DNA of 64,000 nt, from assembly GCA_903869265.1 (NCBI GenBank), contig CAIPYE010000010.1:62001-126000 (forward strand), written 5' to 3'. The position numbers and the translations under genes were made by a program. Under the pieces are notes generated by a model. That model was not told the DNA's origin. It did no database searches and worked only from the letters and a program-made list of their open reading frames with translations. Positions 469 to 18,411 of this stretch are shown piece by piece. Positions within the stretch are counted from its first letter, which is position 1. Each line of letters opens with the position of its first letter. The DNA comes from an uncultured delta proteobacterium. Lineage in GTDB: Bacteria; Desulfobacterota; Desulfobulbia; Desulfobulbales; Desulfurivibrionaceae.

Positions 469-1737
469 TCAGGTGAATACTATATCTGTACAATTTACGT
501 GACGAACCAGATTTTCTTTTGAGATACATAAAAGAAATCCCTTTATTGCACGCATCTCCCTATCCGACATTGACCAATAACACGGAACATTAATTATCTG
601 TTCGGCAATTTCTATAGCCTTATTCGCAGAAACAATAACACAATCGCTTTGTTTATAATTCGGCGGACACTCACTAAACCAGCGCCCCGCCTCAACGCCG
701 AGTTGTTCTGCAATAGTCAATACTTTTTCCACAACGTATTTATCAACAAGGATTGACAACCTGGGTGCTACGAGATACTCGCCATCTCTTCGCCGTATCG
801 GACAATTGAGTCCCAGAATCGTAGCGTAATCCTCTAACTCTTCAAGATTTCTGTGGGTTTTACTTATCATTGAACCCATCCGTGGGATCATGAATTTGTA
901 TAAAGCAAGCGAAGAAAATCCTAGCTTTGCCAATGTATTCTTGATTCTCTTTTGGCTCGTGGAAGACTTTCTAAATATCTGCGTACCATAAAGAAAATAC
1001 CAAACAACAAAACCACCCCATGGTTGCCACCTCGTCATTAAAACACTAAACCAAAGTTGAAAAAGCCTTCGGATATCCTGCATTATGGAGACCCTACACA
1101 GGGTATTATAGTAGCCAACTATTCTACTGAGATACACTGCATTATTTATAGTCAACACCCCCCCCCATCCAATAGTTATGGTTTTCGACACTTCTAACGA
1201 AAAGACACTGACATCCCCCCAAGAACCAAATACCGTTGAATTAAGACTACTACCAACAGATAAGCAATTATCCTCTATTACCAATAAGCCTAAATCCTTC
1301 ATCCTCTTTATCGCTGGTGGCTGCATGCCTAGTCGCCCAAAAGTATTTTGGATAATAATTGCTTTTGTTCGATCAGTGATGGCTATCGTGACACACTTCT
1401 CATTCATTGTTAAGTCGTCGTTAATATCAACATAAACGACTCTTGCCCCGGTTTCACAAACAGCATACGTGACTGCATCACATGTAAAAGAAGAGACAAT
1501 TACATCGTCACCATCGCCTATATTGCATGCAAAAAGAGTCGCTGCAATTGCTGAGCGCCCTGACTCAAATACCAAGCTAAACGCATCTTCTACAATTTCA
1601 TTATTTACACTTAACCTAACTTTACCATTGATGGTTTCCAAAATGAACTGATTTATTGTAGAGATATCGTTTCCACGCCAAAGCGAAGAAATACCTGATG
1701 AAAATCTGGATGGACTTATTTTAATTTTCATCAACAT
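469..1737 (-). CDS. DegT/DnrJ/EryC1/StrS-like PLP protein, divergent
   Basis: 422 residues with the fold markers of sugar aminotransferases of the DegT family: an SGRSAI loop near residue 60, VIEDN with the cofactor-binding Asp at 156, and a Schiff-base lysine at 185 in FSLEVSKTITIGWGG. The canonical GEGG after the lysine is GWGG here, so activity is less certain than for the other DegT proteins in the locus. A G9 run (1158-1166 on the plus strand) encodes exactly this WGG segment, so any slippage would end the protein at the active-site loop. The last residues run up to the IS3 element and may not be the native C-terminus. It probably modifies a nucleotide sugar of the surface glycan; the substrate is unknown. 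Confidence 0.7.
   Translation of the reverse strand: MLMKIKISPSRFSSGISSLWRGNDISTINQFILETINGKVRLSVNNEIVEDAFSLVFESGRSAIAATLFACNIGDGDDVIVSSFTCDAVTYAVCETGARVVYVDINDDLTMNEKCVTIAITDRTKAIIIQNTFGRLGMQPPAIKRMKDLGLLVIEDNCLSVGSSLNSTVFGSWGDVSVFSLEVSKTITIGWGGVLTINNAVYLSRIVGYYNTLCRVSIMQDIRRLFQLWFSVLMTRWQPWGGFVVWYFLYGTQIFRKSSTSQKRIKNTLAKLGFSSLALYKFMIPRMGSMISKTHRNLEELEDYATILGLNCPIRRRDGEYLVAPRLSILVDKYVVEKVLTIAEQLGVEAGRWFSECPPNYKQSDCVIVSANKAIEIAEQIINVPCYWSMSDREMRAIKGFLLCISKENLVRHVNCTDIVFT
1158..1166 (-). repeat. G9 homopolymer in coding strand (candidate phase-variation tract)
   Basis: Nine consecutive C on the plus strand, read as G9 in the aminotransferase. The reading frame is open at this length. The tract encodes the glycine loop directly after the PLP lysine. 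Confidence 0.75.
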
Positions 1738-1764: not shown

Positions 1765-2862
1765 TTAAATCACTTCAATTATTTTTGAGGTGATTTGGGC
1801 AACCTGCTCTCTAGTCAAACCCGGATAACTTGGCAGATTCAACCCGCGACTACTTAATGATTCGGCAACAGGGTAGGTGTCTTCAGTTTTGAATGCGGGC
1901 ATGGTGTGCGCCGGATAAAACAGGGGGCGGGTTTCTATGTTATTGTTTTTCAGGTGCTGCCGAATATGATCGCGCTCTATCGCATCTTTCGCCAAAATGG
2001 ACACCATCCAGTAAGAATTCATCGCATCCTGACTATCTGCCTGAAACACTAGCGAAGTTCCTGCAAGATCAGCCCGATACCAGTCAGCCAGCTCTCGCTT
2101 TTTAGGAAGGATCTTGTCCGCATGCTCAAGCTGGGCCACGCCAATGGCGGCGCATATATTAGTCATTCTGAAATTGAAGCCAATCTCGTCGTGCCAATAC
2201 TCGCGCGTAAGAGAGACCGCCTGGCTTTTCAAATAGACTGCTCGCTCAATCAGTGCCTGCCGATTAGAAACAACCATTCCACCTTCCCCTGTGGTGATAG
2301 TCTTGTTACCAAAAAAACTAAATGTTGAAATATCGCCAAAGCTTCCCGCGTATTGTCCGCGATATTTAGTGCCAAATGCTTCCGCCGCATCTTCGATCAG
2401 GAATAGGTTATGTTCCCTGCAAACGTCAGAAATTGAATCCATATCGCACGGTGCCCCATACAGATGAACAGCGAGAATAGCCTTAGTTTTTTGTGAAATC
2501 TTCGCGGTTATCTTTCCAGGATCAATATTCCAGGAACTCTCCTCGGAGTCGACAAACACAGGCGTAGCGCCCACATAGGCGATGGCATTGACAGACGCAA
2601 TATAGGTGAGTGTCGGCACGATCACCTCATCATCCGGGCCGATACCCAGAGTTTTAAGCGCAAGGTGCAACGCGACCGTCCCATTGCTCACTGTTGTCGC
2701 ATGACGGATATTCAAATACGCAGCGAATTCTCTTTCAAAGCGTGTAACAAACTCACCTTTAGATGATATCCATGACGAGTCAAAGCATTGGCCAACGTAC
2801 TGCCTTTCTCGCCCAGAAAGTTGCGGTTGATAGACCGGGATGAATTCATTCTTAATACTCAT
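1765..2862 (-). CDS. DegT-family sugar aminotransferase (perosamine-synthase-like)
   Basis: 365 residues from the start MSIKNEFIPVYQPQLS; an ATG five codons upstream is also possible. Motifs are complete: VSNGTVALHLAL near 58-69, IEDAAEAFG with Asp158, and FFGNKTITTGEGGM with the PLP lysine at 187. The FFGNKTITTGEGGM block is the one typical of GDP-perosamine synthases and related 4-aminotransferases. The enzyme would transfer an amino group from glutamate to a 4-keto-6-deoxy nucleotide sugar. No matching 4,6-dehydratase for a GDP sugar is in the window, so the substrate is open. It lies 27 bp upstream of the previous aminotransferase, in the same operon direction. Confidence 0.82.
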   Translation of the reverse strand: MSIKNEFIPVYQPQLSGRERQYVGQCFDSSWISSKGEFVTRFEREFAAYLNIRHATTVSNGTVALHLALKTLGIGPDDEVIVPTLTYIASVNAIAYVGATPVFVDSEESSWNIDPGKITAKISQKTKAILAVHLYGAPCDMDSISDVCREHNLFLIEDAAEAFGTKYRGQYAGSFGDISTFSFFGNKTITTGEGGMVVSNRQALIERAVYLKSQAVSLTREYWHDEIGFNFRMTNICAAIGVAQLEHADKILPKKRELADWYRADLAGTSLVFQADSQDAMNSYWMVSILAKDAIERDHIRQHLKNNNIETRPLFYPAHTMPAFKTEDTYPVAESLSSRGLNLPSYPGLTREQVAQITSKIIEVI

Positions 2863-2914
2863 TAAAATCACTTCCAAATGATAATACGTGTTTTATCTAG
2901 TATTTTTTTGCCAT

Positions 2915-3633
2915 CTAGCCTTTTATGACAAATTGCAACATAGATATTCTTCCCGAAGGATAAGCGTAATCACTTCGACTAGTACAGCTATAAAATTCAG
3001 AAGAAATATTAATTAGATATTCAATGTTTCTTCTGAATCCTTTATCATACTGTTGTTTTTTATTCATTTTAATGGCATACCGCATTCGTTTTTTTGTCAG
3101 AAACGAATAAATATATTGATGCAAAAATTCAAGAAACTTCACTGGATTTTTATTGACATAGTAAAGAGAAGGCGAAAATAGAATGATATTCGCCACGTTC
3201 ATTCTGTTGAATATCGCGAATATCTCCTTTAATTCCAAGTCGTTAAAACAATAGTCAACTTGCGTCATCAACCCTAATTCACACCCCCCCCCCCCGCAAA
3301 TACGCTTAAGCATGATTCTTCGAATCTAAAAAAATCGCTATGCCGGTATTTTATTTTCTTCCCCAATCGAAATGCCGCTTTATTACAAATTTCTACTGCA
3401 TGGGCGTCAATATCTAATACGGTAAGATCTAAACCGTTGACGACGGACACAATGCTATCTTTAAGTAAATCTAAGCCTATGGATAATGCCACTTTATTAT
3501 CTAGACCTTTATCATGAATAAAGTTGCTCAATTTTCCGGCATGAAGAAGGGTGTGTGGTTCGTTAACACTATATTGCAGAAAAAGATCTTCCAATGTATT
3601 TGTATGCTTCATACATTTGTTTTCTAAGTCCAT
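2915..3633 (-). pseudogene. SAM-dependent methyltransferase-like gene, frameshifted at a G12 tract (phase-OFF?)
   Basis: The 5' frame (3633 to 3274) gives 119 residues with a SAM-binding pattern (VALSIGLDLL, then LTVLDIDAHAVEICN) and then stops right after a run of G codons. The 3' frame (from 3313 to 2915) continues with VDYCFNDLELKEIFAIFNRM and a plausible C-terminal half. The two halves meet at a G12 run (3284-3295). Adding one G, or losing two, would fuse them into a protein of about 239 residues. This is the classic form of a slipped-strand phase-variable gene in its OFF state; an assembly error in the homopolymer is the alternative. It neighbours another methyltransferase and two aminotransferases in the glycan operon. 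Confidence 0.75.
3284..3295 (-). repeat. G12 homopolymer in coding strand (phase-variation tract)
   Basis: Twelve consecutive C on the plus strand. At G12 the upstream frame ends in AGGGGVN-stop, whereas G10 or G13 would read on into CELGLMTQVDYC. It is the longest homopolymer I noticed in the window. Confidence 0.85.
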
Positions 3634-3728: not shown

Positions 3729-4499
3729 TCATGACTTTTGCGCTAGGGATGTAACGAAAAATGACTGCCCGAATGTTGAGTAGGCCTTCCATTCCTGCAA
3801 CTTAAAGGACGGATTGGCCTCACAAAATTCTTTGACTGCCCGCAACTCGCCCATATTGGCGCCCGGCGGGAAGCAATACCAGTCATCGAAAATCAATATC
3901 GCACCCACCACCAATAAAGGCTTAATAAATTCCAACACATCGACTGTAGATGAATACAAATCCACGTCGATGTGCACCACCCCTGCCTTGGGCAGGCGGG
4001 CTTGTATTTCTGGGGTCAAACTGTCGCAGTAATAGCCTTGAACAATATGATTATCATCGAGCCGCAAGCCCGTTTTCTTCTCCACGATACGCACAAAATC
4101 AGTGCGTCCCGTACAAAACGTGCCGGTCTTGAAATATCCGTCGACCTCAGGATTGGTTTCTGGCAGGCCTTCGAAAGAATCAAAGGCATAAAACTCAGCA
4201 TTGCTCATACCCAGAAACTTGGCGGCCCGCACCGCCACAGAAAACGTGCGCCCTGAATGACAACCAAACTCAAAATAAGTTTGTGGCAGCCCCCCCCCCG
4301 CTCCAGCAACACGCAGATAATTCAGCGCCTCAAGAATATGAACAAATTTGAGATGCTCATCGGTGTATGTATAGTCATCCAGAGCGGGCATCAGCTTAGG
4401 CTGAAACAACCTAACCAACATGCGGTAGAAGAAAGTTTGCACCGACTCAGGAAAAAGCTGGCGCACAGGGCGGAGAACAGATTTTATTTTATAAAACAT
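3729..4499 (-). CDS. TylF/macrocin-type O-methyltransferase
   Basis: 256 residues. The pattern YFEFGCHSGRTFSVAVRAAK is the SAM-binding loop, AFDSFEGLPETN is a strong TylF-family signature, and GVVHIDVDLYSSTVDVLEF with ILIFDDWY supplies the metal-binding acidic residues typical of this family. TylF-like enzymes methylate sugar hydroxyls and are common in surface polysaccharide clusters. A G10 run (4290-4299) encodes part of AGAGGGLP ahead of the catalytic domain. The frame is open at this length, so the gene is currently ON. The acceptor sugar is not known. Confidence 0.85.
   Translation of the reverse strand: MFYKIKSVLRPVRQLFPESVQTFFYRMLVRLFQPKLMPALDDYTYTDEHLKFVHILEALNYLRVAGAGGGLPQTYFEFGCHSGRTFSVAVRAAKFLGMSNAEFYAFDSFEGLPETNPEVDGYFKTGTFCTGRTDFVRIVEKKTGLRLDDNHIVQGYYCDSLTPEIQARLPKAGVVHIDVDLYSSTVDVLEFIKPLLVVGAILIFDDWYCFPPGANMGELRAVKEFCEANPSFKLQEWKAYSTFGQSFFVTSLAQKS
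4290..4299 (-). repeat. G10 homopolymer in coding strand (candidate phase-variation tract)
   Basis: Ten consecutive C on the plus strand inside the TylF-type methyltransferase, encoding glycines in AGAGGGLP. The frame is intact at G10; a change of one or two bases would truncate the enzyme before its SAM site. Confidence 0.78.
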
Positions 4500-4561: not shown

Positions 4562-6244
4562 TTAAATATCCGGCCAAGCTTCTGGCACCGTGTTGTCCTT
4601 GTCCAAAATGCAGTTGCAAAGATGATCCAGATAACGGTCTTTCCCTGGGATTAAATCTTCTAGCGAGTTAAAGCTGAATCCATCAAAATCATCTGCATAG
4701 GCTTGTTTTGTCAACCTCCATGGAATAAGCGTACGGATGAAATAGAAGTAGGCAAAAAGTTCCAGTTGGTCGTAATTGACTGCGGGGGGCTTAGTTTCGC
4801 CCAGCAGCAACGCTCGATAGGCATTGATGCTCTCAGGCTCCGCTGCCAAGTTTAAACCCTTGTGGGACGTGAGGCCTGTTGAGATAACAGGAATGCCAGC
4901 CAGCATCATTTCAAGGCCGAGTGTGCCGGTGAATATTACCCCAACATCGATAAATGGGAACAGATCGTAGGGCTTGAGCCTCCATTCAGGTTCAATAATG
5001 GTTACGTTCTCAGGAAGCACTGGGTATTTTTCTTTTATGAACTGTGAAACCCCCTTGCTGGACCTCACTCCGAATACTTCGGCAGGGTGAGGCTTGATAT
5101 ATAAGTGGCAATTATCGTCTTTCCTACATAATTCAACAGTACCGAGCACCCATTGGAGCACATCGGGGTAAAGGCCACCGTTGTCCGATAGACCAACATC
5201 CCAAAAGATATTCGGGAAGAGGAAGATATTCCTCTTCCCGGGAAAGATTTTCAACTTGGCTTTCAATACATCATCACCGACAGGCAATTTAGCAAACGAT
5301 CCCAAGTCCTTAAATATCTCAGCTTGACCAGTAGTTCGTTCCCGGAGAAACTGTTGCAAATATACCTTTTCTTTTGTCGACAAGGTAACGTTTTGCCGAC
5401 TTTTATTATATCTAACAAACCGCCGTGATGACTGGAATAAATTCGGAAGATTAAACCTGATACAACGATAATCTAAAGGGGTCATTGACATCGTAATAAA
5501 TCGATTACCCATTTTTTCATAGAAACGGAAAAATGGCTCCCAGGCTGAATAACAACCCATATTATTAAACACAACATCCGGGGTCCACGCATCATCAATC
5601 CGCTTGGCTATCTCAATTGACATGAAAGCCGTCTTGATATGCTTCCGCCTAATCTCTTTCACCGTCCCCTTGTCTAGAGGAACGCCTCCGTAGAAGTAGC
5701 GGACAACAGAGTCCTCAATACACTGAAACAAATTAACCCCATGCCTAGTTATTGCTATAACATCAGAGGAAAAAGCTTTCGTTGCAGCATCTCCTAATTC
5801 CAGAACTTCTTCCTTCACTAATACATCTTTAATACGGATAACTTCCAAACCAAAAAGCGGGACAATGTTACGTTCGTTAAATCGACACGTCCAGCATGGA
5901 TCATTATCATGTTCATTTCTCAAGGATTTAATTTCACAACCATCTAGACTTTGCCCGCAGATCAGCACTTTCACCTCGGCACCTCTTAGCTGAAGCGCCT
6001 TTGCAATAATAAGAATCTGCAAATACTGGTAATGGGATGTTTCAATAAGCGGCACTAACACTCTCATGCCTTTTGTCTTTGAAGCCACAACCCAACTCTT
6101 CGAATTGCTTGACAGCTGCCTCATGAGAACTGATCGCAAGAACAGATAATACCTAAGCAAATGGCGCAGACGTTGCACTATCAAATTGCGAGATCCTATT
6201 TTCACTAAAAAATCAGGGGCAAATCTTTTTATAATTTTTATCAT
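4562..6244 (-). CDS. Capsule/surface-polysaccharide GT-B-like protein
   Basis: 560 residues. The N-terminal half starts a Rossmann-like segment at MRVLVPLIETSHYQYLQILI and contains a Cys cluster (ICGQSLDGC and DPCWTCRFNE). The C-terminal half has NIFLFPNIFWD, YIKPHPAEVFG and FTGTLGLEMMLAGIPVISTG, which resemble the donor-binding half of capsule-type glycosyltransferases (KpsS/KpsC-like and polysialyltransferase-like GT-B folds). I infer transfer of a sugar, possibly the nonulosonic acid, to the glycan. The donor and acceptor cannot be read from sequence. Its start lies next to a short IS-derived remnant. Confidence 0.6.
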   Translation of the reverse strand: MIKIIKRFAPDFLVKIGSRNLIVQRLRHLLRYYLFLRSVLMRQLSSNSKSWVVASKTKGMRVLVPLIETSHYQYLQILIIAKALQLRGAEVKVLICGQSLDGCEIKSLRNEHDNDPCWTCRFNERNIVPLFGLEVIRIKDVLVKEEVLELGDAATKAFSSDVIAITRHGVNLFQCIEDSVVRYFYGGVPLDKGTVKEIRRKHIKTAFMSIEIAKRIDDAWTPDVVFNNMGCYSAWEPFFRFYEKMGNRFITMSMTPLDYRCIRFNLPNLFQSSRRFVRYNKSRQNVTLSTKEKVYLQQFLRERTTGQAEIFKDLGSFAKLPVGDDVLKAKLKIFPGKRNIFLFPNIFWDVGLSDNGGLYPDVLQWVLGTVELCRKDDNCHLYIKPHPAEVFGVRSSKGVSQFIKEKYPVLPENVTIIEPEWRLKPYDLFPFIDVGVIFTGTLGLEMMLAGIPVISTGLTSHKGLNLAAEPESINAYRALLLGETKPPAVNYDQLELFAYFYFIRTLIPWRLTKQAYADDFDGFSFNSLEDLIPGKDRYLDHLCNCILDKDNTVPEAWPDI

Positions 6245-6263: not shown

Positions 6264-6522
6264 TCGGTCGGAAATAGTGGAGACCAAATCGTTCACGCCG
6301 CAAATTGTTTTTCGTAGTATCACCGCTCATTGGCTGCCGGAGAAAGAGAAGTGGCCACGGAAATTTGAACAAGCCGCTAAGTGGAAAATATGTCACCACC
6401 TTCACCGCCTCTTCCCGGAACTCTTTCGTGTATCTTCCGTTAGGAATCCTCTCAATTCTGACACCTCCGTTTTCTGCTTAAAGAAACAGCGCATTGGTGT
6501 CCACTTTTTTCAACCGACCTCA
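6264..6522. mobile_element. Small non-coding IS remnant with imperfect terminal inverted repeats
   Basis: This gap between two glycosyltransferase-like genes holds no credible gene. Its left end (GGTCGGAAATAGTGGAGACC) resembles the reverse complement of its right end (GGTCGG, TTG, AAAAAAGTGGACACC), giving imperfect inverted repeats about 255 bp apart. Inside lies the 31-bp sequence that also flanks the IS3 element at 423-453. The right end overlaps the last codons of the next gene. I read it as an internally deleted IS or MITE-like remnant. Confidence 0.5.
6359..6389 (+). repeat. 31-bp IS-associated repeat, copy 2
   Basis: Identical over 31 bp to the reverse complement of 423-453. It lies inside the 255-bp remnant between two glycan genes. 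Confidence 0.85.
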
Positions 6523-7412
6523 TATTTAATCGCTAACACATCCTGAAGGCTGACAATATCTGTATGGGGCAAAACACAAGATCTACCTCCACATGGAATA
6601 CAACTAACCACTTTTTTCCCGGCGAGCAAAGCTATGACCATCGCCATCGATTCACAACCAACCACAAGATCGTTATCCGCAATTTCTTCTATCAGAGGAC
6701 GCCCCCCGCCTATTTCAATCGGTAGGTCGAATTCTCGCCGAGCCCAACTATATTTTTCTGGCCGTTCAGATGGATGTGGACGAATCAGGATACGCTCAAT
6801 TGGTTGACCTAAAGCTGAGGCGTTCGAAAGAAAATAACGCAGTGCCTCCTCCTCCACATACCCCCAAAAATGTGCGTCACCATATCGTATCAAAGCGTGT
6901 TCACTCACCGGTTCACAGACATAGAGTATGGAAACTGAATCCGGGTTGGGCAAACGATGCGTTTGGATTGCGGCCAGTTCTTGCTGAATATCCTGCACAT
7001 AAGGGTTATCTACCAATGTAACTGGGAGGTTCGGAAAGATTTCCTTTACCATTGCTTCAGCCATGACATCGCCAACCCATATCTCATCAGGAATAATTAT
7101 TTCACCCGACCGGACAAATCGATCACGATAGTTAACCCAATGATCAAGAAAAGCTATGGAACGCTTGCCTAGCGAGCGCGCCAATTTTATGGCATTCAAC
7201 TCAATATCTGATTGCCAACTGGTACCGCAAAGAATAGATGTCGACTGTTGAATTGCTGCTTCGAGAGGGATGGCTTCAATGGACCCTAGCTTGCGCTCAA
7301 ATATCTTGCGTGCGGGGCCACCCAACACATAAATGAAATCCAAGCCTTGCTGACGTACATAGCTACTTAGAATCTCAGCGCCACCAGCATCGTGAGATAT
7401 CAACGCAATCAT
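6510..7412 (-). CDS. GT-B-like surface glycan protein, family not identified
   Basis: 300 residues. It starts with a nucleotide-binding-like strand (MIALISHDAGGAEILSSYV). A HW-NYRDRF segment follows near 100, then IRPHPSERPEKYSW near 210, and a C-terminal VVGCESMAMVIALLAGKKVV resembling the donor-site helix of GT-B transferases and PseG-like proteins. It begins in an ATGA overlap with the acetyltransferase gene upstream, so the two are translationally coupled. It may transfer or modify the pseudaminic acid derivative; this is inferred only from context and weak motifs. The C-terminal residues fall inside an IS remnant. Confidence 0.5.
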   Translation of the reverse strand: MIALISHDAGGAEILSSYVRQQGLDFIYVLGGPARKIFERKLGSIEAIPLEAAIQQSTSILCGTSWQSDIELNAIKLARSLGKRSIAFLDHWVNYRDRFVRSGEIIIPDEIWVGDVMAEAMVKEIFPNLPVTLVDNPYVQDIQQELAAIQTHRLPNPDSVSILYVCEPVSEHALIRYGDAHFWGYVEEEALRYFLSNASALGQPIERILIRPHPSERPEKYSWARREFDLPIEIGGGRPLIEEIADNDLVVGCESMAMVIALLAGKKVVSCIPCGGRSCVLPHTDIVSLQDVLAIKYEVG

Positions 7413-10348: not shown

Positions 10349-11404
10349 TCAATGGAACGCATTCCAACTCAGCGCTGTTCCGCGCTTCATATCCTGCGTA
10401 ACCTTCATTCCCAACACTTGCTCCAGATACTTCGCAGGTAAACCTAGTCCTGGTCGTATTGCGCGCACATTCTCGCGCGTCAGTACATCTCCCGCTTTAA
10501 GATCTTGCACCACATATAGCGAGCGGCGGAACTGAAGAGATTTCTTTTCGGCGTCAACAGGGCCGTAGCTCACTCGCCCAAGCGCCTGCCAAGCCCGTTC
10601 AATTTCCACGAACAGTTGCGTCATTTCGGCAGGTTCCATGGAAAAAGTGCTATCCACCCCGCCATCGCCGCGATTTAGGGTAAAGTGTTTTTCGATAACA
10701 GTCGCCCCCAGTGCCACGCTGGCCACAGACACGCCTATGCCCATGGTGTGATCAGACAGACCCACTTCGCAGCCGAACAATTCACGCAGATGCGGGATGG
10801 TCAAAATATTGGTGTTCGCTGCCGTAGCGGGATAGGTGCTGGTACATTTGAGCAGGACCAACTCTTTACAACCTGCCTCGCGTGCGGCACGCACAGTCTC
10901 ATCCAGCTCGGCCACTGTAGCCAAGCCGGTGGAAATAATCAGCGGCTTGCCGGTTGCCGCTACACGGCGAATCAGCGGCAGGTCTGTGTTCTCAAACGAA
11001 GCAATCTTGTAGCACGGCACATTGAGACTTTCAAGGAAATCGACCGCCGTATCATCAAACGGGGTACTGAAAGCGATGATGCCCAATTCGTGCGCACGAT
11101 CAAAAATCGGCTTGTGCCATTCCCACGGAGTGTAGGCCTCCCCGTAGAGTTTGTAGAGCGAAGTCCCCGTCCACAGGCTGTTCGGATCGCTGATGTAAAA
11201 CTCACGCTCATCCAAATCCAGCGTCATGGTATCCGGGGTGTAGGTCTGTATCTTCAGTGCGTGCGCACCCGTTCTAGCCGCTGCCTCAACGATTTCCAAG
11301 GCGCGATCTAACGACTGATTATGGTTTCCGGACAGTTCGGCGATGACAAAAGGAGCCTTGTTTCGACCAATAATCCGATCGGCAATTTTAATTGATTTAT
11401 TCAT
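10349..11404 (-). CDS. pseI: Pseudaminic acid synthase
   Basis: About 351 residues of the NeuB superfamily. FVIAELSGNHNQSLDRALEI is the pseudaminate-synthase version of the NeuB N-terminus. HALKIQTYTPDTMTLD, PCYKIASFEN, LLKCTSTYPA, GLSDHTMGIGVSVASVALGA and EKHFTLNRGDGGVDSTFSM follow, and a C-terminal antifreeze-like (SAF) domain closes it (RRSLYVVQDLKAGDVLTREN). It condenses 2,4-diacetamido-2,4,6-trideoxy-L-altrose with phosphoenolpyruvate. The ATG at 11404 is preferred; a TTG two codons upstream overlaps the pseG-pseH stop. It sits in a complete pse set. Confidence 0.95.
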   Translation of the reverse strand: MNKSIKIADRIIGRNKAPFVIAELSGNHNQSLDRALEIVEAAARTGAHALKIQTYTPDTMTLDLDEREFYISDPNSLWTGTSLYKLYGEAYTPWEWHKPIFDRAHELGIIAFSTPFDDTAVDFLESLNVPCYKIASFENTDLPLIRRVAATGKPLIISTGLATVAELDETVRAAREAGCKELVLLKCTSTYPATAANTNILTIPHLRELFGCEVGLSDHTMGIGVSVASVALGATVIEKHFTLNRGDGGVDSTFSMEPAEMTQLFVEIERAWQALGRVSYGPVDAEKKSLQFRRSLYVVQDLKAGDVLTRENVRAIRPGLGLPAKYLEQVLGMKVTQDMKRGTALSWNAFH

Positions 11405-11406
11405 TT

Positions 11407-12915
11407 TCAATGCAATTTTTTCGAGTAGTAGGTGGATTCAATTTGGTATCCAGCTCCGGAAAACAACCTCTGTGAACGCTCATTTTCCCCCAGCACATGC
11501 GCGCAAATTTTGCGAATTTCTGGATGATTAGCCACAAGCCATTGCTCGGCACTTTGCAACAAGCTTTGCCCCAGACCAAAAGATGTGCTATCTGGAACAA
11601 CGTAAATCGAAATTTCCGCCTCATCGTTCCGCTTATCAAAGCGAACAACCCCAACCGGAGATTCCGACCGCTGTCCTATGAGCAGCATTTTCTCGGGATC
11701 GTCCAACACAGAAGCAAACCAACTTTGGTGATCCTGCCAGTCGATCACATCCGCGTTACGGGAAACCTCTCTAATACTTGGGTGATTACGCCACTGAAAT
11801 AACTTTCTCGAATCTTCCGGTCTTGCCACCCGAATTTCAATATCACTTATGCCCAAACTTGCAATGGCCAGCAATGCCCCGCGACCATTGACAACTTGCA
11901 TGCTATTGCGAGAAACAAGCTCTCTCAATCTAGCATTTTCAATCAGCGCACAGGCATGTCTTAGGATAACTTGCTTCAAATCAGCTTTGATTTCTGGAAA
12001 ATATAGCAAACCCTCACGGGCAGCATCTGCAAGCTGCTTCTGCTGGTTGACTGCGGTACAAAAAACCAATGTAGGCAAACCCAAGCAACAACGCTCCCAT
12101 GTTGCCGAGCCCCCCGCACCAATGGCGAGATCGGCTGCTGCGATCAACTCCGCCATCTTCTCGGTTTGCACATAACATATAAACCCATGCTGTACACATG
12201 CCACTTTGATTTTTTCAAGGCAAGGATGCAGTGCACCGATCACCACATCGACATAAAGACCGCGAATGTCGATCTCGGAGAGCGCCTCAATTGCTTGCCC
12301 CGTATAGTTGTCGGCATCTACACCGCCAAAAAACACCAGAATTCGTTTGACCGGCCCTGTGCGCGGCTTGACTTGCCCACGCAGCTTTCGGAACTCATCC
12401 CGCAGCAAAGCATAGCGAGGACCCAGTAGCAACTGACAATGCGCTGGCACTTTATCGGCATAACGAGTCTGCATATCAGCATAAAAATTCTGATCCAGCA
12501 GCACATCGCAATCGTGTTGACGGTCGGCGATATCATCGACGACCATGATCTTTTTTGCCGTTTCACGCAAGGCACTTTCCCAGCGCGCATCCAATGCATA
12601 GTGGTCAACAACCAGCCAATCCCAAACCTGACCAGACAGCGCCTGAATAGTTACTTGCGCATCCTGCGCTTGACTGCTTCCCAGCCAACTCGCATGAGCC
12701 AGATCATCAGCGGGATACGGGATTGCATCACTACCCAGCGATACGAGCTCCATGTCTTTTGCGGATAGCATATCGCGCAAATACACCAGCAGACCGCAGC
12801 TGACAAAGCGAATGTGCGCACCTCGCTGCTTCAGTGCATCAGCCAAAGTCAAGCAACGCATGAAATGTCCGGTGCCGATTTGGTTTGATGCGTCTACGCG
12901 AAATGCAATATTCAT
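11407..12915 (-). CDS. pseG: PseG-PseH fusion: UDP-sugar hydrolase plus N-acetyltransferase
   Basis: About 502 residues with two domains. Residues 1-330 are PseG-like: NIAFRVDASNQIGTGHFMRC at the start, VDHYALDARWE, FFGGVDADNYT and GAGGSATWERCCLGLPTLVF, the GT-B-like UDP-sugar hydrolase that releases UDP from UDP-2,4-diacetamido-trideoxy-altrose. Residues 345-502 form a GNAT domain (IRVARPEDSRKLFQWRNHP, VGVVRFDKRNDEAEISIYV, GLGQSLLQSAEQWL, HVLGENERSQRLFSGAGY) matching PseH, the N4-acetyltransferase acting one step earlier. In Campylobacter and Helicobacter these are separate proteins. The start ATG at 12915 fits the conserved N-terminus. Confidence 0.9.
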   Translation of the reverse strand: MNIAFRVDASNQIGTGHFMRCLTLADALKQRGAHIRFVSCGLLVYLRDMLSAKDMELVSLGSDAIPYPADDLAHASWLGSSQAQDAQVTIQALSGQVWDWLVVDHYALDARWESALRETAKKIMVVDDIADRQHDCDVLLDQNFYADMQTRYADKVPAHCQLLLGPRYALLRDEFRKLRGQVKPRTGPVKRILVFFGGVDADNYTGQAIEALSEIDIRGLYVDVVIGALHPCLEKIKVACVQHGFICYVQTEKMAELIAAADLAIGAGGSATWERCCLGLPTLVFCTAVNQQKQLADAAREGLLYFPEIKADLKQVILRHACALIENARLRELVSRNSMQVVNGRGALLAIASLGISDIEIRVARPEDSRKLFQWRNHPSIREVSRNADVIDWQDHQSWFASVLDDPEKMLLIGQRSESPVGVVRFDKRNDEAEISIYVVPDSTSFGLGQSLLQSAEQWLVANHPEIRKICAHVLGENERSQRLFSGAGYQIESTYYSKKLH

Positions 12916-12934
12916 AGTCACACAAGACGGCAAG

Positions 12935-13630
12935 TTAGATGTTTTTTTTACTCAGGAAGCAAGCCTTTGCCATTTCAAGATCCTCTGCATCGTCAATATC
13001 CATCGCTGACATCCAGCTTAGTTCATGAAATATGTGACTTGGCACGTAAAATGTTTTTGCAGACTTAAGCGCTGGAGCCCGAGCAACCCATATTGCGCCG
13101 CTCGGGCAATATAAAGGTGGCAAATCTTGAGAACGGGCGACCCGGGCCTCTGGGAATAAGTAATCAGGCACACCCTGCTCATTCAGTTTGGCTGCCCACC
13201 AGGGATTCATCCAACCAAAACGAAAACTGCTAATCTGTGATTCGGCGTTTCGATTTTCAAAATTCTGAATTGAAGCCGTTATGTCCTTTGCATCACGGAG
13301 TGGACAATTCGCCATCAGTTGCGACACAATATCAAACTGTTCACCCCAGTATTGTTCTGCCTGCCTGAGCGCCGCAAGGGTTGCCTCACTCGACGGCGTT
13401 ATGTCATCGGCTGCCGAGTCACGCAGAAAAGGCACCGCAGCACCAAATGAACGAGCTATCTCCGCGATTTCATGATCATCTGTTGACACAACCACCTGAT
13501 CAAATTGACACGATTGCAATGCAGCTTCCACGCTCCATGTCAACATGGGTTTCCCATGAAAATCCAAAATATTCTTGTGGGGCAGTCGCTTCGAGCCGCC
13601 GCGGGCCAAGATGATCGCAATATGTTTCAT
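12935..13630 (-). CDS. pseF: CMP-pseudaminic acid cytidylyltransferase
   Basis: 231 residues of the CMP-NeuNAc synthetase family. It starts IAIILARGGSKRLPHKNILD (nucleotide-binding loop), followed by DQVVVSTDDHEIAEIARSFG, QLMANCPLRDAKDI and a C-terminal MDIDDAEDLEMAKA with the metal-binding Asp pair. The chosen ATG at 13630 overlaps the SDR stop codon (TAATG), which fits both the family N-terminus and coupling. It activates pseudaminic acid with CTP, the last step before transfer to the glycan or flagellin. PseF is preferred over NeuA/LegF because of the neighbouring pse genes. Confidence 0.9.
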   Translation of the reverse strand: MKHIAIILARGGSKRLPHKNILDFHGKPMLTWSVEAALQSCQFDQVVVSTDDHEIAEIARSFGAAVPFLRDSAADDITPSSEATLAALRQAEQYWGEQFDIVSQLMANCPLRDAKDITASIQNFENRNAESQISSFRFGWMNPWWAAKLNEQGVPDYLFPEARVARSQDLPPLYCPSGAIWVARAPALKSAKTFYVPSHIFHELSWMSAMDIDDAEDLEMAKACFLSKKNI

Positions 13631-14391
13631 TACCAAATCCCCCATCCACCATCCACTGCAAAAATATGCCCCGTAACACCCGAGCATTTGTCTGACAACA
13701 TCATGTCCACTGGGTCGACCACTTCGTTGTCTCTCAACATTCGCCCCATTGGACAAAGCTGCGCATAACGTTGTTTGAAAGCCTCATCAACACGTCCCTC
13801 TACCCCGCCAAACGCAACACAATTAACTTGAATGCCTTTCTCAGCCAGACGAACCGCTAACTCCTTGGTCAAATGCGCGAGAGCAGCCTTTGCCACACCA
13901 TAGTGCACCGGCGATTGTTTAATCGGATCGGTGTACAAATGCGGGTTCGCGGCGACCGTTCCATACTGCGAGCCGATGTTTACAACTCTGCGTATTTGGC
14001 TATCTTTCTGGGTAGTCAAAGCCATCGTTAACTCGTAAGGCACGATAACATCGAGCAAATATTCATTAGCAAAATTCTCTCGGCTTACCAGACCCTCTTC
14101 TCCAATTTTCAGAAAGCCGATGCTTCGCGCATTGTTAACCAGACAATCAGGCTGAATGTCCTGACGATCAAGCTGCTCTCGAAGAGTTTTTATCGCGTCA
14201 GTTTCCGTAAGGTCTACCTTAATCCCCACGAATCTCTCACCATGGTGCGCATGCTCCGCCGCCAACTTCTCTAAAGATTCATGTGTTCGACAGGTGGTAA
14301 TGACACGATCTCCGGTAACCAAAAAATGACTAACCAGAGAACGCCCAAACTTGCCGCCCCCCCCCGTAATCAATATTGTTCTTGGATTCAC
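13630..14391 (-). CDS. Short-chain dehydrogenase/reductase of the glycan locus
   Basis: 253 residues, a classical SDR. It has TILITGGGGKFGRSL as the nucleotide-binding loop, KVDLTETDAI, CLVNNARSIG, a catalytic Ser in RRVVNIGSQYG, HYGVAKAAL with the YxxxK pair, and a C-terminal GHIFAVDGGWG. The start is a GTG at 14391 in a GTGA overlap with the upstream oxidoreductase. PtmA-like SDRs occur beside nonulosonic-acid genes in Campylobacter, but the substrate here is unknown. A G9 run (14357-14365) encodes the TGGGG loop at residues 9-13, so slippage would switch the gene off almost at the start. Confidence 0.85.
   Translation of the reverse strand: MNPRTILITGGGGKFGRSLVSHFLVTGDRVITTCRTHESLEKLAAEHAHHGERFVGIKVDLTETDAIKTLREQLDRQDIQPDCLVNNARSIGFLKIGEEGLVSRENFANEYLLDVIVPYELTMALTTQKDSQIRRVVNIGSQYGTVAANPHLYTDPIKQSPVHYGVAKAALAHLTKELAVRLAEKGIQVNCVAFGGVEGRVDEAFKQRYAQLCPMGRMLRDNEVVDPVDMMLSDKCSGVTGHIFAVDGGWGIW
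14357..14365 (-). repeat. G9 homopolymer in coding strand (candidate phase-variation tract)
   Basis: Nine consecutive C on the plus strand, read as G9 about ten codons into the SDR gene, within its NAD(P)-binding glycine loop. The frame is open at this length. Confidence 0.77.
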
Positions 14392-15285: not shown

Positions 15286-16167
15286 CTAGACTCTCCAAAG
15301 AGCGGGGTTTACAAACAAGATGTCATTGCAGGCTAAATTTGATGCATCGAAGCTAGCATCGACAGAAAAAGCTTCAACACATGAATGGAGCTGCGCCAGA
15401 TTCTCTACACCAACCAAAACCGCGTCCACGTATGGAATATCTCGCACAAACGATAGAGCTGCCTGGCTGAGGGTCATACCTTGCTCTTGAGCGGCAGCAT
15501 GCCATTTGGCCAGTAGTGGTCGAATAGAATCAAAGTACGCAGGAATCTGACTCAACGGCATCAATAACAAGCCCTGCAAGAATACTGATCTAACGTGAAT
15601 TTCAACCCCTTCTTTTTTTAGTCGCTCCAATTGTCCATGCACCAGCATTCTTTGATCCAGAACGCTAACGGGGAGCTGAACGATGTCTGGTTTGAATATT
15701 TCCAGAACCGCATCGGCTTGAGCTCCATCGTAGACCGAAACGCCGATGTTCTCTACAAAACCTTTTGCTTTTAGTTCCAACAGAGCATCGACCAGCTTTG
15801 AACCACCGGGCACAAGAAGGTCATTTGCATGGTGAACCAGAAGTCCATCTATTCTTTGGCACGCTAGGCGTTGAAGTGACTGCTGAAACACCTGGATAAG
15901 CTGAGACGCTTGCTCATTTATTATAACTGGTGTCCCAAACCTCGGTGTTTTTGAAATTATGCGAAACATCTGCAATGGATTGGCGCCCAATACCGATTCT
16001 GCTTCACCATATAAAGATGCAGTATCCAAGACTTGAATCCCGCAATTTTGTGCCTCAACCAGTATAGCTGTTACTGTTCCTGGCTCGGTAATTCCAGACT
16101 GGTTGGCAACCCCATAGTGAAGACCCCACTGAACGGTTCCCAACCCAAGCTTATTAATACTTTTCAT
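15286..16167 (-). CDS. Aldo/keto reductase-family protein
   Basis: 293 residues with a TIM-barrel AKR layout: KLGLGTVQWGLHYGVANQ at the start, IQVLDTASLYGEAESVLG (the catalytic Asp and Tyr), GLLVHHANDL (His), VENIGVSVYDGAQADAVLEI and VDAVLVGVENLAQLHSCVEA. The ATG at 16167 forms an ATGA overlap with the stop of pseC, so it was chosen over an upstream start inside pseC. AKR proteins of this branch are frequent in nonulosonic acid clusters, where they reduce sugar intermediates. The exact step is unknown. Confidence 0.82.
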   Translation of the reverse strand: MKSINKLGLGTVQWGLHYGVANQSGITEPGTVTAILVEAQNCGIQVLDTASLYGEAESVLGANPLQMFRIISKTPRFGTPVIINEQASQLIQVFQQSLQRLACQRIDGLLVHHANDLLVPGGSKLVDALLELKAKGFVENIGVSVYDGAQADAVLEIFKPDIVQLPVSVLDQRMLVHGQLERLKKEGVEIHVRSVFLQGLLLMPLSQIPAYFDSIRPLLAKWHAAAQEQGMTLSQAALSFVRDIPYVDAVLVGVENLAQLHSCVEAFSVDASFDASNLACNDILFVNPALWRV

Positions 16168-17333
16168 TCTGCTAAAGCTGCATGCAAGGCGTGAACTACA
16201 ATGTCTTGCTGGCCCCAAGTCAATGCCGGATACATGGGTACACTGATCGCCTCTGAATAATATTGCTCGGCTTGCGGGCAGTGTCCCGCTCTGAAACCCA
16301 TCTGCTCATAATAGGGCTGGCGATAGACTGGGATATAGTGCAAATTTACGCGTACCCCTGCCGCATGCATCACTTCATAGACTTGGCGTTGCGTCTTGTT
16401 GATTTCACCCAACCTCAAACGAATAACGTAAAGGTGGTAACCGGAATAGCTGTCTGCGTGTTGCCACGGACACTGTACTGGCAGACTAGATAACCTCTGA
16501 TCGTAACGCTTTGCAATAGCGTGGCGACTCGTAACAAACTCGTCCACCCGCTGCATCTGACTCAAACCCAATGCCGCTTGTATATCGGTCATACGGTAGT
16601 TGAAGCCCAGACCAATCTGTTGATAGTTCCAAATTTCTTCCGGTGGACGGGGGCACATTTCTGCTGCGCTGCTGGAGATTCCGTGGCTGCGCAGCAGGCG
16701 CATTTCCTTAGCCACAGACTCGTCGTTGGTCAACGCCATCCCACCTTCACCGGTAGTGATAATCTTGACCGGATGAAAGCTGAACACGGTAATGTCGCTA
16801 TATCGACAATTACCGATGAGTTCCCCTTTGTAACGGCCCCCGATAGCGTGCGATGCGTCTTCGATGATCTTGAAACCGTATTGCTGGCTGAGCGCGTGAA
16901 TACCAGCCATGTCGCAAGGTTGGCCGCAGAGGTGAACGGGGATGACAACCTTGGGCAAAGTGCCCGCTTTTTTCGCTATGAATAACTTTTCAGCTAAAAG
17001 CTCCACGCTCAGGTTGTAAGTATTCGGATTGATATCTATAAAATCCACCGTCGCGCCGCAATAAAGCGCACAGTTAGCGCTGGCGACGAAGGTGACAGGT
17101 GTGGTCCAAACTAGGTCGCCTTTGTCGACGCCCAAGGCCAGACAGGCAATATGCAGCGCACTAGTAGCGCTGTTTACTGCCACCGCATGCTGCGCACCGC
17201 AGTAAGTGGCGACGACTTTTTCAAAAGCGGGAACGACCGAGCCTTGGGTCAGGAAGTCCGAGCGCAAAACTTCTACGACTGCATCAATGTCTGCTTGGTT
17301 AATGTCTTGGCGTCCGTAGGGGATCATGGTCAT
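16164..17333 (-). CDS. pseC: UDP-4-amino-4,6-dideoxy-N-acetyl-beta-L-altrosamine transaminase
   Basis: 389 residues, DegT family. IPYGRQDINQADIDAVVEVL is the PseC N-terminal signature. Further motifs are AVNSATSALHIACLALGV, TTPVTFVASANCALYCGA, IIEDASHAIGG with the cofactor Asp159, and FSFHPVKIITTGEGGM with the PLP lysine at 190. It aminates the 4-keto product of PseB. The start is the ATG at 17333 in an ATGA overlap with pseB. Immediate coupling to pseB makes the assignment firm. Confidence 0.95.
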   Translation of the reverse strand: MTMIPYGRQDINQADIDAVVEVLRSDFLTQGSVVPAFEKVVATYCGAQHAVAVNSATSALHIACLALGVDKGDLVWTTPVTFVASANCALYCGATVDFIDINPNTYNLSVELLAEKLFIAKKAGTLPKVVIPVHLCGQPCDMAGIHALSQQYGFKIIEDASHAIGGRYKGELIGNCRYSDITVFSFHPVKIITTGEGGMALTNDESVAKEMRLLRSHGISSSAAEMCPRPPEEIWNYQQIGLGFNYRMTDIQAALGLSQMQRVDEFVTSRHAIAKRYDQRLSSLPVQCPWQHADSYSGYHLYVIRLRLGEINKTQRQVYEVMHAAGVRVNLHYIPVYRQPYYEQMGFRAGHCPQAEQYYSEAISVPMYPALTWGQQDIVVHALHAALAE

Positions 17334-18331
17334 CAAATCTTTCCAATGTAGTCTCGGTTTTGTGCAATCCATGCCCGCAAGGTGTCGATACTCATCCAAT
17401 CAATATTGTTATCCGAGCAGTAGATAAAATCAGGGGCTACCAATTTGCCGCCGCTGATACGCTTGGGGTCGCGACTCCAGCCATGGATGGCTGGCAGGAC
17501 TTTGTAGTACTCGGCGTATTCGTAGGTATGCGGGGCGTCCTCGGGGCCGATCATCTGCTCGTGCAGCTTTTCGCCAGGGCGAATACCAACGATCTCGTGT
17601 GTGGCGGCAGGGACGGAAGCCAACGCGACATCAGTGATTTTCATTGATGGAATTTTTTTCACATAAATCTCGCCGCCGACCATGTCCTCAAAGGCATGCC
17701 AAACAAGATCCACGCCTTGCTCTAGGGTGATCATGAACCGGGTCATTCGGGCATCAGTAATGGGAAGCACACCCTTGTCGGCAAGAGTCAGAAAGAAAGG
17801 AATGACCGATCCGCGCGAACCCATGACGTTGCCGTAACGCACCACGGAAAAACGGGTCTCGCTATGGAGAGAGTATGAGTTCCCGGCAATAAACAGTTTG
17901 TCCGAAGTCAGCTTGGTGGCGCCATACAAATTGGCCGGACTGCTGGCCTTGTCGGTCGAAAGCGCGACCACCCGTTTCACTCCTTGATCGATACAAGTAT
18001 CAATAAGATTCATGGCACCAAACACATTGGTCTTAACACATTCAAAAGGATTGTATTCGGCAGTGGGCACAATCTTGGTAGCTGCTGCGTGGACAACGTA
18101 ATCGACATCACTAAGCGCCCGTGCGAGACGGTCTTTATCGCGCACATCGCCAATGAAAAAACGAACGCGTTTGTCATCGCAATAAAGCTTGGCCATCTCC
18201 CATTGCTTCATCTCATCACGCGAATAAATAACAAGCCGACGCGGGTTGTATTTAGCTAGCGTCATGGGAATGAAGGTGTGGCCAAAAGAGCCGGTACCGC
18301 CGGTGATAAGGATGGAGGAGTTAGTTAGCAT
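17333..18331 (-). CDS. pseB: UDP-N-acetylglucosamine 4,6-dehydratase (inverting)
   Basis: 332 residues, an extended SDR of the PseB/FlaA1 type. It has ILITGGTGSFGHTFIPM (NAD loop), RRLVIYSRDEMKQWEMA, HAAATKIVPTAEYNPFECVK, VALSTDKASSPANLYGATK (catalytic Lys) and GSRGSVIPFFL. It converts UDP-GlcNAc to UDP-2-acetamido-2,6-dideoxy-beta-L-arabino-hexos-4-ulose, the first step to pseudaminic acid. The ATG at 18331 (MLTNSSIL) is preferred over one five codons upstream. Coupled to pseC by ATGA. Confidence 0.95.
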   Translation of the reverse strand: MLTNSSILITGGTGSFGHTFIPMTLAKYNPRRLVIYSRDEMKQWEMAKLYCDDKRVRFFIGDVRDKDRLARALSDVDYVVHAAATKIVPTAEYNPFECVKTNVFGAMNLIDTCIDQGVKRVVALSTDKASSPANLYGATKLTSDKLFIAGNSYSLHSETRFSVVRYGNVMGSRGSVIPFFLTLADKGVLPITDARMTRFMITLEQGVDLVWHAFEDMVGGEIYVKKIPSMKITDVALASVPAATHEIVGIRPGEKLHEQMIGPEDAPHTYEYAEYYKVLPAIHGWSRDPKRISGGKLVAPDFIYCSDNNIDWMSIDTLRAWIAQNRDYIGKI

Positions 18332-18411
18332 AGCGAGATATTGCACCTTGTGGAGTAACTAAATTATTAAAAAACCATGGGTGATGACTTGTTTGATTTA
18401 AGCGCGCCGTG

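Follow-up and report, generated by a model that had tools for sequence, protein, structure and literature searches.

A coding G12 tract splits a putative glycan methyltransferase gene in a Desulfobulbales bacterium: a candidate phase-variable gene

Results

We have found that positions 2915-3633 on the minus strand of the window, meaning the whole 64-kb stretch of DNA analysed, contain one gene that is split at a run of twelve G. What we show is the sequence with its two reading frames, one homologue that spans both halves, and long G runs in excess at this locus. On balance, we favour the view that it is a glycan-modifying gene, probably for a sugar methyltransferase, that switches between ON and OFF as its coding G tract changes length by strand slippage, and that it was assembled in the OFF state.

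The tract, read directly from the sequence, occupies positions 3284-3295 at the frame junction (G12 on the minus strand, C12 on the plus strand). The N-terminal half (3274-3633, minus strand) comprises 119 codons, passes through the G12 and meets a stop just beyond it, so that the upstream frame ends ...SCLSVFAGGGGVN at a stop (119 aa). The C-terminal half (2915-3313, minus strand) lies in a different frame, runs from an internal ATG shortly before the G12, reads ...GGGGCELGLMTQ... and ends at the stop at 2915. Both halves were delimited by their open reading frames and codon usage, and the codon-usage log-odds indicated coding on each side in differing frames (+11 on the left, +13 on the right). 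When the frames were recomputed for tract lengths of 9-14 G, a single protein was obtained only at 10 (238 aa) and 13 (239 aa), indicating that the joined reading frame needs a tract length of 1 mod 3. This agrees with the earlier note, which had described a G12 split that G10 or G13 would restore to about 239 residues. The G12 sits within one gene, and unit length changes make or break the frame; it exceeds the Campylobacter hypermutability cut-off of at least 7 G/C (PMC6321876). Under an order-3 composition model, about 0.009 runs of at least 12 C are expected in the 64-kb window. The G+C content around the split gene is 39%. The C-terminal half has 122 codons without a stop at about 31% G+C, for which the chance is 3e-5 to 5e-5. 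Considering that this half is still open across 122 A+T-rich codons, any break is recent.

A search of 395 phylum genomes gave one intact homologue of 235 aa, in a distant genome (G273), with an E value of 3.2e-6 in the genome search and 2e-9 pairwise, and 25% identity at residues 15-157. The alignment runs across the junction, and the homologue is gapped near the tract, indicating that the G12 is probably part of an insertion or loop. Whether homologues span both halves had been proposed as a check on the gene, and this one (n = 1) does, which favours one gene. By inspection, the homologue is flanked by radical-SAM-like and glycosyltransferase-like genes; the relatives of G273 lack it. No close homologue of the fused protein was found in 58 relatives, in 258 class genomes, in plasmids, or in GTDB species genomes by a peptide pattern search, and a profile built from the fused protein and the G273 homologue gained nothing convincing.

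In terms of function, the fused protein matched no Pfam, NCBIfam or PHROGs family at threshold. The best sub-threshold matches were methyltransferases, namely PrmC for the fused protein (E 0.21) and MTS for the homologue (E 0.11). The methyltransferase label first given to the gene has weak support from these sub-threshold hints, and is plausible but unproven. A PLP-acyltransferase reading of the N-terminal half (E 0.0027) was unsupported by Pfam and by the homologue, and was rejected. The single-sequence fold of the N-terminal half was of low confidence and was set aside.

The split gene belongs to a glycan locus on the minus strand. Immediately downstream of it is a DegT/DnrJ-family sugar aminotransferase gene (1765-2877, minus strand; PF01041, E 4e-123), and a DegT/DnrJ-family aminotransferase-like gene (469-1737, minus strand) carries an in-frame G9 at 1158-1166. 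Next to the split gene on its upstream side, an intact TylF-like methyltransferase of 256 aa (3729-4499, minus strand; PF05711, E 5.5e-12) has an in-frame G10 at 4290-4299 (minus strand), in a linker ahead of the conserved YFEFG motif, and this G10 was missing in all 11 of the homologues compared. A class-I methyltransferase gene about 9 kb from the split gene, past the window edge (L009:13832-14638), also has an in-frame G10; two true methyltransferase genes near the split gene thus carry such a run. The short-chain dehydrogenase gene (13630-14391, minus strand) has an in-frame G9 at 14357-14365, which falls in its glycine-rich nucleotide-binding motif. NCBIfam models assigned pseI, a pseG-pseH fusion and pseF at 10349-13756 and pseC with pseB at 16164-18346, both on the minus strand. 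PseB, PseC, PseG and PseI exceed their cut-offs; PseF (178.9 vs 205.7 bits) and PseH (76 vs 93.1) fall below theirs. The pseudaminic-acid context named in the earlier note accordingly holds, since the split gene comes after the run of pse genes and four Pse proteins pass. By inspection, transposase-like ORFs lie on either side of the locus. Window positions 4562-6244 and 6510-7412 encode intact glycan-locus proteins of 560 and 300 aa, for which neither Pfam nor NCBIfam gave a family match at the thresholds applied.

We counted long runs across the genome (2.82 Mb, 17 contigs, 99% complete), in which the window is G000:C10:62001-126000. There are 26 G/C runs of at least 9 against about 25 expected from composition, and 6 of at least 10, matching the composition prediction. 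Accordingly, the idea that long runs are in excess across the genome was rejected, and with the total at chance level the signal is clustering rather than the total. Besides the G12, the long runs of the window (G9 at 1158, G10 at 4290, G9 at 14357) are all in glycan genes, and a further G10 (C10:56182-56191) is located 5.8 kb outside the window edge. The locus contains 5 of the 26 runs of at least 9 inside 20.2 kb (scan p 6e-4) and 3 of the 6 runs of at least 10 inside 10.1 kb (scan p 8e-4); the locus was picked post hoc, and the scan statistic covers any genome position. In every clustered case, G is on the coding strand. Synonymous-codon resampling of 30 locus genes gave an expectation of 0.24 G runs of at least 9, whereas 4 are present, a number reached in 0 of 1000 resamplings. 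These figures leave out the split gene; the resampling was also run with it. Runs of 5-7 in the locus genes equalled expectation, and the 19 other window genes showed no long-run excess under the same resampling. An excess confined to long runs is expected if slippage lengthens runs or selection retains them, and the same pattern would arise from neutral expansion where the locus is under weak constraint.

Split genes with long runs were also found elsewhere. Within this genome, a C10 (L012 2001-2010; G000:C14:87410-87419) in a proline-rich linker splits pilQ, whereas the gene is open and without the C10 in the 13 genus-mates having full-length matches. Its nearest named matches, at 80-87% identity, include Desulfobulbaceae bacterium UBA2273 and Desulfurivibrio sp. 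S2_56 (metagenome-assembled Deltaproteobacteria), which probably places the genome in the Desulfobulbales. In genus-mate G013, an N6/N4 DNA methylase gene is split at a G16 right before its DPPY motif (L120 1501-1516), from which phase variation of this methylase is possible, and in genus-mate G007 a TPR-secretin gene is split by a G11 (L101 1501-1511). A C13 in a pseudopilin gene of G013 is in frame, as are the long runs in the housekeeping-like genes lon, yidC and a cysteine-desulfurase-like gene. The yidC of G015 had been a candidate split gene and was rejected, as its frame continues through the tract. By hand count, about 8 such genes concern the surface or DNA modification, of which 4 are split, vs 0 of about 7 others, which is suggestive and not significant.

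Several other runs were observed. Two species, G015 and G007, share a C10 at the beginning of a PilX-like pilus gene (L114, L116), in frame in both. Further runs are intergenic, such as a G11 upstream of a sigma-54-type regulator gene (L013 2001-2011; G000:C14:149772), where it could alter promoter spacing. G10 matches per genome are very uneven across the order, from 0 to over 200 (G016, G034, G039), and a 24-C run adjoins a block of N in L048.

Discussion

On the favoured reading, slipped-strand replication would change the length of the G tract in the coding sequence and thereby turn the gene ON or OFF. With 12 G, the product would be a 119-residue fragment ending just past the tract (OFF), and with a tract length of 1 mod 3 the whole protein would be made (ON). 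Together with the two in-frame G10 methyltransferase genes, the split gene would give rise to cell-to-cell differences in the decoration of the glycan, which probably contains pseudaminic acid. Variation of the tract length within the population, its reversibility, the activity of the enzyme and the effect on the glycan are what we infer.

On the one hand, the two coding frames, the intact second half, the homologue across the junction, the clustering and resampling excess of long G runs, the genus splits in pilQ, the secretin and the DNA methylase, set against in-frame housekeeping-like genes, and the Campylobacter precedent of tract-bearing methyltransferases favour switching. On the other hand, the chance-level genome total, the unconserved tracts, the weak methyltransferase identity, the single spanning homologue and MutS speak against it. 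MutS is encoded and intact, so that repair of slippage may be more effective here than in bacteria without it. Weighing both sides, we consider slipped-strand phase variation the most likely explanation, followed by an assembly length error and then by a fresh pseudogene.

An assembly error, in which the real tract has a fixed in-frame length and the gene is simply intact, is in our judgement unlikely, even considering that consensus errors are most frequent at long homopolymers and that both split coding runs in the genome (the G12 and the C10 of pilQ) have a length of at least 10. Two further coding runs of this genome that are 10 long and the runs in genus-mate housekeeping genes are in frame, and a coding tract of G10-G13 would stay slippage-prone anyway. 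We also doubt, and rank behind it, that the gene is a fresh pseudogene, with a single frameshift in a glycan locus that was acquired horizontally and is poorly conserved, and runs grown by neutral slippage with no selected switching. Such a history would suit a gene that no relative in the class has kept (258 class genomes searched), a locus of low G+C with transposase-like ORFs on both sides and tracts unconserved in homologues, but the C-terminal half carries no additional damage and several intact genes of the locus also show the long-G-run excess. Moreover, a break at G12 is revertible in principle and thus grades into phase variation. It is very improbable that transcriptional or ribosomal slippage at the 12 G yields some full-length protein, so that the gene is never fully OFF. 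RNA polymerase can slip on long runs and the downstream frame is intact, but the neighbours' runs are in frame, and slippage there would do no more than waste product.

Beyond this gene, we tentatively suggest that free-living Desulfobulbales may have a small phasome, in which poly-G/C tracts would act as switches of glycan methyltransferases, of type IV pilus and secretin genes and of DNA methylases. Such phase variation would be independent of a host and could be directed, for instance, against phages. If the tracts vary, surface glycans and pili would be switched in environmental bacteria without a known animal host, and phage predation or biofilm life could then be tested as a driver of this mechanism, for which host immunity is the usual explanation. 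The mechanism itself is already known, mainly from pathogens such as Campylobacter. In the open full-text literature, whose coverage is incomplete, we found no description of phase variation with Desulfobacterota, and the lineage seems new for it within what was searched. The earlier view that such tracts are little described outside a few lineages is accordingly fair for this lineage and too strong in general, considering that a general role of such a mechanism in prokaryotes has been proposed for homopolymeric tracts, mainly poly-A/T (PMC2831843).

Among the phase-variable genes of Campylobacter, those for SAM-dependent methyltransferases with a G7-G13 tract are common (PMC6321876). The split gene resembles Campylobacter poly-G/C genes (PMC6321876, PMC8355987) in having a G tract of 7-13 within the coding sequence. 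Its setting is similar as well, since the typical carriers in Campylobacter are SAM-dependent methyltransferases and surface-glycan genes in a pseudaminic- or legionaminic-acid context. In Campylobacter, cell-to-cell length variation is documented, whereas the present tract is known from one assembled sequence; unlike Campylobacter, this genome has no genome-wide excess of long tracts, and MutS is present. The likeness to phasevarions, which are based on phase-variable DNA methyltransferases (PMC7394358), concerns the genus-mate DNA methylase split at G16, which belongs to a different species and is distinct from the split glycan gene. As in the switch proposed in PMC2831843, a homopolymer frameshift would inactivate the gene reversibly; the emphasis there is on poly-A/T near gene starts, whereas here the tract is poly-G in mid-gene.
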